Part shown: piece by piece, positions 17,894 to 57,337 of the stretch
Layout: every line of letters begins with the position of its first letter
How positions within the stretch are numbered: position 1 is the first letter of the stretch
Assembly: GCA_947589075.1 (NCBI GenBank)
Contig: CANQBS010000002.1
Location: 37,656 to 101,655 of the forward strand
From: an uncultured Acetatifactor sp.
GTDB lineage: Bacteria; Bacillota; Clostridia; Lachnospirales; Lachnospiraceae
Length of the DNA: 64,000 nt
Direction of reading: 5' to 3'
Notes under the pieces: model-generated
Told to the model about the DNA's origin: nothing
What the model saw: only the letters and a program-made list of their open reading frames with translations
Databases searched by the model: none
Position numbers and translations under genes: made by a program

Positions 17894-17987
17894 AAAATAC
17901 AGCTCCCAAACAGGAAGCCCCTCCTTTCTATTTATCAACATTATATGGCCCGTCGCGGCAAAAAGCAATGGAAAGATGAAAACAGGT

Positions 17988-18146
17988 AACAGTTCAGCCG
18001 CGCCATTCGCAAAGCCGCGCTTACGCGCTTTCCGTCGCTCCGCGACTACCTTTGCTCATTGAATGGCGCTCCCTCAGCCGCCAGACATGATGGAAAATTC
18101 GTGCAAGCACGATTTCCCATCAAATCAGGCGGCTGGCTGAACTGTT
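17988..18146. repeat. Multi-hairpin repeat element, copy A
   Basis: 12-bp terminal inverted repeat AACAGTTCAGCC/GGCTGAACTGTT; internal core shared with 28505-28570. Confidence 0.8.
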
Positions 18147-18361
18147 ACGAAAACAGCAGGATTCCCCGGAATTTTCATTGTAAGATGGAAGCGGATGTTG
18201 TATAATGTGATTTATCAGCAGACGTACAAAACGCAGGGCGGCTGTGCAGCCCGCCAGATAGCGGACATTTGTCCGGAACTGATAAGTTATACACCAAATA
18301 TTGGCTGAGGGCGCGGCCGGGGAGATATTTTGCTGCGTATCCAGGCGGAATGCGAGGGAAA

Positions 18362-28249: not shown

Positions 28250-28460
28250 CGTCAGAAACCAGGCTCCGGGAAGTGGGTCCTCCGAAGACCGGCACAAAAA
28301 CACGCATAGGTTCATTCATCGTGGACCTATGCAGGACAGACTCAGCGATCTGGCTGAACGCAAATGGGCGTATCACAGTGGCGGGACCGTGCGGGATTCT
28401 CACCCGGCTTCTCTGAATAAATGCCTGACCCTTGTAGTGGAAAGCATTCAATTTTCCGGT
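28250..28460 (-). ncRNA. Cobalamin riboswitch
   Basis: Minus strand GAAGCCGGGTGAGAATCCCGCACGGTCCCGCCACTGTGA core, in front of btuFCD and followed by intrinsic terminator. Confidence 0.9.
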
Positions 28461-28468
28461 AATGTGTG

Positions 28469-28642
28469 AGTTCACTCAGCACCCAAGCCGAATAGATTCG
28501 GCTGGCAAAGCCGCGCTTACGCGCTTTCCGTCGCTTCGCGACTGCCTTTGCTCATGAAATGGCGCTCCCTTCGTCCGTTCAGCCAAGAGCAGATATTCGT
28601 GCCAGCACGAATCTGCTCCTTGGCTGAACGGACGAGTGAACT
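28469..28642. repeat. Multi-hairpin repeat element, copy B
   Basis: AGTTCACTC/GAGTGAACT ends; CGTCCGTTCAGCCAA/TTGGCTGAACGGACG arm; core GCAAAGCCGCGCTTACGCGCTTTCCGTCGCTTCGCGACTGCCTTTGCTCAT shared with copy A. Confidence 0.8.
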
Positions 28643-28771
28643 GTAGCGAGCATAGTATATCAGACCGCTTTTGCTCTGTCAAGATGTTGAAATCTCCATC
28701 ATTTGATGTTAGAATAAAGGATATCATTGCAAACTGAAATACGAAAGAAAAAGTGTTGTGGGGATGGCAGG

Positions 28772-57150: not shown

Positions 57151-57337
57151 TAAAGGGTGTGCTGGGAAAAATAAAGGGACTTTTTTATTTTTGCTTTTTA
57201 TTGAAAGAATATGCAGGCTGGAATATAATGATACAAGGGGATTTCGAGAGCACGAAGTGCGGAGAAATCCGTGTATCATAGGCGACCAAATACCTTTTGT
57301 CGCCCACATTATATAATACAAACAGGAAGGATAGATC

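Follow-up and report, generated by a model that had tools for sequence, protein, structure and literature searches.

What is the hairpin-rich element of about 160 bp that occurs twice in a 64,000-nt stretch of a contig from an uncultured Acetatifactor sp. (hereafter, the window)? A preliminary description, made from the sequence alone, offered two answers, a non-autonomous (MITE or REP-like) element or a structured RNA family, and took the divergent but complementary outer arms as a sign of selection on structure. The locus raises three questions: whether the element moves, what its conserved core represents, and how its long hairpin stays paired.

The two copies in the window and their family

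Copy A is 163 bp long (Table 1). Its termini are perfect inverted repeats of 14 bp, GTAACAGTTCAGCC and GGCTGAACTGTTAC, confirming those of the preliminary description, which had given their length as 12 bp; the 8-bp direct repeat GAAAACAG that flanks them perfectly had been missed. On the minus strand, which is the H1-first strand, the parts follow in the order end, H1 (the long hairpin), GAGCGCC, ATGAGCAAAG, two small hairpins, CTTTGCGAAT, GGCGC and end. The core previously described as GCAAAG-[GCGC..GCGC]-[GTCGC..GCGAC]-CTTTGC and its second hairpin are both present, and a tandem G.A pair is possible in the ATGAGCAAAG/CTTTGCGAAT helix. Folding of this strand gave a z-score of −10.4 against dinucleotide shuffles, and the copy was scored with R1, a covariance model built from copies of its own genome. 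Copy A lies between divergent genes; the sole promoter-like site aimed at one of these neighbours (18178–18206, plus strand) is beyond the element and leaves it outside.

R1, with copy B among its training copies, recovered the sister copy at exactly the coordinates first proposed for it (E = 1.8e-25). The folding z-score of copy B is −7.5 on the minus strand, against dinucleotide shuffles. Its ends are decayed (end variant CAGTTCACTC/GAGTGAACT), its H1 arms differ, an additional hairpin (CAGCCGAATCTATTCGGCTTGG) is present, and no 8-bp duplication is recognisable beside it. Since a promoter-like site reads into copy B and an AdoCbl riboswitch lies downstream on the same strand, the copy is probably part of a B12-riboswitch operon leader, to which, from its position between these two features (28469–28682), it appears to add about 175 nt. 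Small extra hairpins (AAGTCGAAC..GTTCGACAT, TATGTCCGCTC..GAGCGGACTTGG and CAGCCGAATCTATTCGGCTTGG) occupy three fixed positions of the element in some copies and are lacking there in others, the loci concerned being L005, L007, L017, L018, L020, L021 and copy B (28469–28642).

Table 1. Positions of the element copies, their parts and neighbouring signals in the window.
Feature	Position	Strand	Basis or remarks
Copy A, assigned to the MITE family	17986–18148	−	Inverted ends; R1, 198.4 bits; sub-threshold RF01699 match on minus strand
Target site duplication GAAAACAG, left	17978–17985	.	Same as 18149–18156
Target site duplication GAAAACAG, right	18149–18156	.	Same as 17978–17985
Terminal inverted repeat GTAACAGTTCAGCC	17986–17999	+	100% complementary to 18135–18148; resembles IS66 ends in congeners
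Terminal inverted repeat, other end	18135–18148	−	Complement of 17986–17999
H1, long hairpin with conserved CGTGCTTGCACG apex; arms hypervariable yet complementary	18076–18134	−	Fold, alignment A3, pair counts, ortholog stem replacement
Conserved core: GCGCC/GGCGC stem, ATGAGCAAAG/CTTTGCGAAT helix and two small hairpins	18000–18069	−	Alignment A3, pair counts; shared with Clostridiales-1
Small core hairpins of copy A	18034–18046 and 18017–18028	−	Alignment A3, pair counts
Copy B, assigned to the MITE family	28469–28642	−	R1, 120.7 bits; alignment A1
Promoter-like site TTGACA-17-TATACT reading into copy B	28654–28682	−	11/12 consensus, TG before second hexamer; consensus match only
AdoCbl (B12) riboswitch downstream of copy B, same strand	28299–28430	−	Rfam RF01482, 69.4 bits

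The possibility, raised in the preliminary description, that only these two copies exist and that compensatory changes are lacking does not hold: about 24 sites of the 3.15-Mb draft genome match the core, and covariation is present (see below). This genome contains 67 instances of the end motif RTWACNGTTCAGC and a single one of the reversed control. Twenty-five copies with both ends were recovered from it, with lengths of 31 to 221 bp; the shorter copies resemble internally deleted forms, and perfect duplications persist around some of them (L055, 53 bp; L061, 96 bp). Of 138 genomes of the genus, 74 carry the family according to a model search, and deeper scoring of four congener genomes gave 45, 20, 51 (G147) and 70 (G029) copies. 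A pattern scan of GTDB returned, among the matches listed, Acetatifactor, Mediterraneibacter, Catenibacillus scindens, Eisenbergiella, Dorea, Roseburia and Coprococcus, together with several entries identified no further than as Lachnospiraceae or Eubacteriales bacteria. Copies A and B belong to a large, previously unnamed family of approximately 163-bp non-coding MITEs of gut Lachnospiraceae. No IMG/VR contig matched the core pattern, and a phage origin was discarded. At four loci of G029 (L285, L318, L316 and L305), extra full or core-only units (model positions ~75–149) stand in tandem with full copies, which suggests amplification of the core alone.

Mobility and the candidate transposase

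Perfect 8-bp repeats flank 36 of 134 copies, and repeats matching at 7 of 8 positions flank another 17 of the 134, where 0.31 and 0.49, respectively, are expected from flanks re-paired at random. A base-exact empty site was found for copy L454 of genome G159: the arrangement AAATACAT-165 bp-AAATACAT corresponds to an uninterrupted, single AAATACAT in the sister genome G001 (99%). The joined flanks of three further G159 copies (L463, L457 and L465) align across the junction in G001 at 97, 93 and 93%. These comparisons concern family members in G159 and G001, other than copy A; for copy A itself, the syntenic intergenic region of G144 lacks the element and is too diverged for base-exact alignment. 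Mobility of the family is well supported. A short non-coding unit with terminal inverted repeats, a fixed 8-bp duplication and insertion polymorphism at empty sites were all found. Given the paired terminal repeats, the 8-bp target duplications, the high copy number and the base-precise empty site, the element can be classified with high confidence as a miniature inverted-repeat transposable element (MITE), the first of the identities originally proposed. It inserts whole, for the most part into AT-rich stretches that lie between genes or at gene ends, and duplicates 8 bp of target. Genes end near both flanks of the element (57 versus 50 in a loose open-frame test), and orientation bias was uninformative.

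The second proposed identity, a REP/REPIN-type element mobilised by a RAYT (Y1) transposase, would account for a palindromic, extragenic sequence of high copy number. It is extremely improbable: the RAYT search suggested earlier yielded no Y1_Tnp (PF01797) match in the draft assembly, the unit is 163 bp long with DDE-type ends instead of short tagged hairpins, and the family carries 8-bp target duplications, which REP movement is not known to produce. The absence of a Y1 transposase and the 8-bp duplications led to its rejection.

The ends of the MITE point to a different enzyme. Congeners carry single-ORF IS66 elements (PF03050, NF033517) with ends GTAACTATTCAG, GTAACTGTTCAG or GTTACAGTTCAG. 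Intact elements with perfect 8-bp duplications were resolved in G006 (GTAACTATTCAG at both ends, 1817 bp) and in G017 (GTTACAGTTCAG/GTTACTGTTCAG, 2202 bp); ends of the same type occur in G003, G126, G024, G118 and G066 without a resolved duplication. The 485-aa protein of G006 is an IS66 transposase (PF03050, E = 1.2e-42; NF033517 above cut-off). The agreement between the IS66 and MITE ends spans about 12 bp, of which one or two differ, and falls short of the full 14 bp. Within the IS66 family, ISDge4, an active element of the ISBst12 group, carries one ORF between ends GTGACTACTCAGCA/GTAACTGCTCAGCA and shows an 8-bp repeat (PMC12898284). The GTAACAGTTCAGCC ends in the window fit this group. 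The features that mark this group as the parent, namely GTAA-type ends, an 8-bp duplication and a single-ORF DDE_Tnp_IS66 partner, were all found, and the MITE is very likely driven by a transposase of the IS66/ISBst12 type. The identification of the driver is indirect, because DDE_Tnp_IS66 is absent from the draft host assembly and only 11 of the 138 genomes of the genus encode a protein related to the tested IS66 transposase at E = 1e-20. Repeats are frequently missing from MAG assemblies. An ISBst12-type single-ORF transposase, acting in trans and encoded by an autonomous element that the assembly no longer contains, would recognise the GTAAC-N-GTTCAG ends and mobilise the GTAACAGTTCAG-ended copies.

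The core and Rfam Clostridiales-1

The minus strand of copy A matches the Rfam family Clostridiales-1 (RF01699) over its full length at 33.7 bits, below the gathering cut-off of 48 bits (E = 5e-6), with an alignment that skips the third 3′ hairpin (34 model positions). Ten of the 13 loci examined gave similar full-length matches, again on the H1-first strand (30.7–39.1 bits), copy A and the tested relatives all remaining under the cut-off. In the reciprocal direction, a model of the window family found one canonical Clostridiales-1 locus at E = 2e-4 and four others at weak or chance levels (E = 0.025–0.74); as this reciprocal search was weak, homology rests on the Rfam-side matches and the shared core. 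The similarity is consistent with the window family being a remote relative of Clostridiales-1 and not a member, and canonical copies also occur in the host genome. The proposal of a structured RNA family was half right, in that the minus strand appears to be a consistent, sub-threshold relative of such a family. Elsewhere in the window, an isolated hairpin at 57223–57285 (GGATTTCGAGAGCACGAAGTGCGGAGAAATCC within GATACA/TGTATC) resembles the third hairpin of canonical Clostridiales-1, and RF01699 matches at 38.3 bits over 57158–57280.

Canonical Clostridiales-1 was inspected by eye at 20 loci of G006 (L115–L134). Ends of the TGATGCC..CATCA type are present at eight of these (L115–L121 and L132; variants TGGTGCC in L118 and TATCA in L121), the others (L122–L131, L133 and L134) having different or variant ends. 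Outside GATG/CATC, an identical AT-rich repeat of 7 bp flanks L115 (ATTATAT), L117 (ATATAAT), L118 (ATTCTAT), L120 (ATATTAT) and L121 (ATTTTAT), and the flanks of L132 match over 8 bp (ATAAAAAT), giving exact insertion-like repeats at six of the eight; those of L116 (ATATGGAT/ATATAGAT) and L119 are imperfect. These repeats suggest that the canonical family is itself mobile. Six of the G006 copies (L126–L129, L133 and L134) start at or beside the stop codons of genes, and in several stop-codon copies the outer stem is formed by the gene's final codons and their inverted repeat at the opposite edge.

The relationship could mean that the element is a structured RNA gene or cis-regulator, its minus strand being transcribed and kept by selection as a Clostridiales-1-like RNA, with MITE mobility merely spreading it. 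The matches to RF01699, the common core sequence, the strong covariation (40 of 59 pairs) and the promoter-like site reading into copy B all speak for this, as does an excess, in other genera, of G.T over A.C mismatches when the H1-first strand is read (40 versus 15, p = 0.001). Against it, the score is below the Rfam threshold and the third hairpin is missing, copy A lies outside the only promoter-like site directed at a neighbouring gene, and Clostridiales-1 is listed as probably RNA but not cis-regulatory (Weinberg 2010, PMC2864571). The mismatch excess is also missing from Acetatifactor copies de-duplicated at 90% (35 versus 39), returns at 80% (21 versus 8) and is 81 versus 18 uncorrected; with so mixed an outcome across de-duplication levels, this asymmetry was set aside as a test of selection on the RNA strand. 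A selected RNA of this kind is rather unlikely.

Inside the MITE, H1 is followed by a stem-and-two-hairpin core distantly related to Clostridiales-1, and the balance tips modestly towards a core that folds passively in whichever transcript receives it. A more speculative view, which we consider doubtful, is that the ATGAGCA-[hairpin]-TGCGAAT core is a functional module with a dedicated factor, captured by unrelated transposon ends (IS66-type in the window family, TGATGCC/CATCA-type in some canonical Clostridiales-1 copies); the Rfam sRNA would be cargo of mobile elements and H1 an exchangeable cassette.

Turnover of H1 and comparison with known systems

That the outer arms differ and yet remain complementary, first noted from two copies, proved true throughout the family by alignment and pair counts. 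Among 55 diverse copies, two-sided changes were found in 40 of 59 pairs, with a covariation score of 0.327 compared with 0.134 for shuffled and 0.07–0.13 for slid controls. Such a pattern would arise if the arms stayed complementary solely because compensatory mutations had occurred independently, time after time, and the stem had been selected for, and G.U-type pairs are indeed present in H1. Comparison of orthologous sites argues against this. Twenty-four site pairs of G147 and G029, picked by similarity of their flanks, were combined with L176/L187 and L216/L219 to give 26 pairs, an incomplete sampling. At least eight H1 changes spread over both arms were found in 14 of these 26, one of which (L278/L298) may be an artefact of the arm boundary. 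Within alleles of the 14 replaced pairs, complementarity is 0.94; it falls to 0.79 with arms mixed between alleles. L176 and L187 differ by one base outside H1 and by 6–7 changes in each arm. The 24 G147/G029 pairs are alike in this respect: in about half, H1 has been replaced, and in about half it is unchanged or nearly so, while the flanks and ends are nearly identical.

Stepwise compensation as the sole cause is, on these comparisons, unlikely, and H1 is likely to have been renewed by block exchange. Replacement is all-or-little and two-armed while flanks and ends are nearly identical, a pattern that points to gene conversion or to template switching more than to stepwise compensation. At least four replaced G147/G029 pairs include an H1 allele that equals, or nearly equals (0.98–1.0), those of other copies of the same genome; for several other replaced alleles the sampled copies include no donor, so that gene conversion is not proven against template switching. 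Small-hairpin columns that alternate G-C with A-U, G-U not being observed, fit exchange at the DNA level and are not decisive. H1, and sometimes a small core hairpin, would be renewed in blocks, either by gene conversion from other copies or by replication template switching at the palindrome, and such exchange would keep the arms complementary amid fast sequence change. The complementarity from which selection on structure had been argued is real, and selection is one reading of it only, since at orthologous sites entire stems have been exchanged, both arms at once.

This MITE family of the IS66/ISBst12 type with a structured, Clostridiales-1-like core is new; no earlier account of an IS66-type MITE like it in Lachnospiraceae was found in the open-access literature. 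It adds to the common gut Lachnospiraceae a family of tens of copies, and it ties Clostridiales-1, an Rfam family of unknown function, to mobile elements, as the family found in the window moves and is remotely related to it; the insertion-like direct repeats at the ends of 8 of the 20 canonical G006 loci (6 exact) strengthen this tie. Orthologous copies in sister species form a natural data set in which covariation can be seen to arise in two-armed blocks, a caution when RNA selection is inferred from covariation in multicopy repeats.

Among known systems, the ISBst12 group of IS66 (e.g., ISDge4, PMC12898284) shares with the MITE its GTAAC..TCAG-type ends and 8-bp target duplication, and single-ORF IS66 elements with GTAACTATTCAG/GTAACTGTTCAG ends occur in the same genus; the MITE differs in having no transposase gene and in its length of 163 bp, keeping the terminal bases only, and the comparison of ends showed no internal resemblance to the IS elements. 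REPIN/RAYT systems (PMC3116915) are likewise extragenic palindromic repeats of high copy number, but the MITE has no RAYT, makes 8-bp target duplications and is a longer, multi-hairpin unit. Clostridiales-1 (RF01699) has the same succession of a long hairpin with TGCTTGCA apex and an ATGAGCA-[hairpin]-TGCGAAT core, from which the MITE departs in its sub-threshold score, missing third hairpin and other ends; the eight canonical G006 copies with TGATGCC..CATCA-type ends mostly have AT-rich direct repeats of 7–8 bp. Finally, the upkeep of RNA hairpins by template switching, in which multi-base compensatory changes arise at once and copies of multicopy genes recombine (PMC8794818), was described for RNA genes, whereas the present case is a mobile element compared at orthologous sites, with gene conversion not separated; H1 shares with that system its simultaneous, multi-base compensatory changes.
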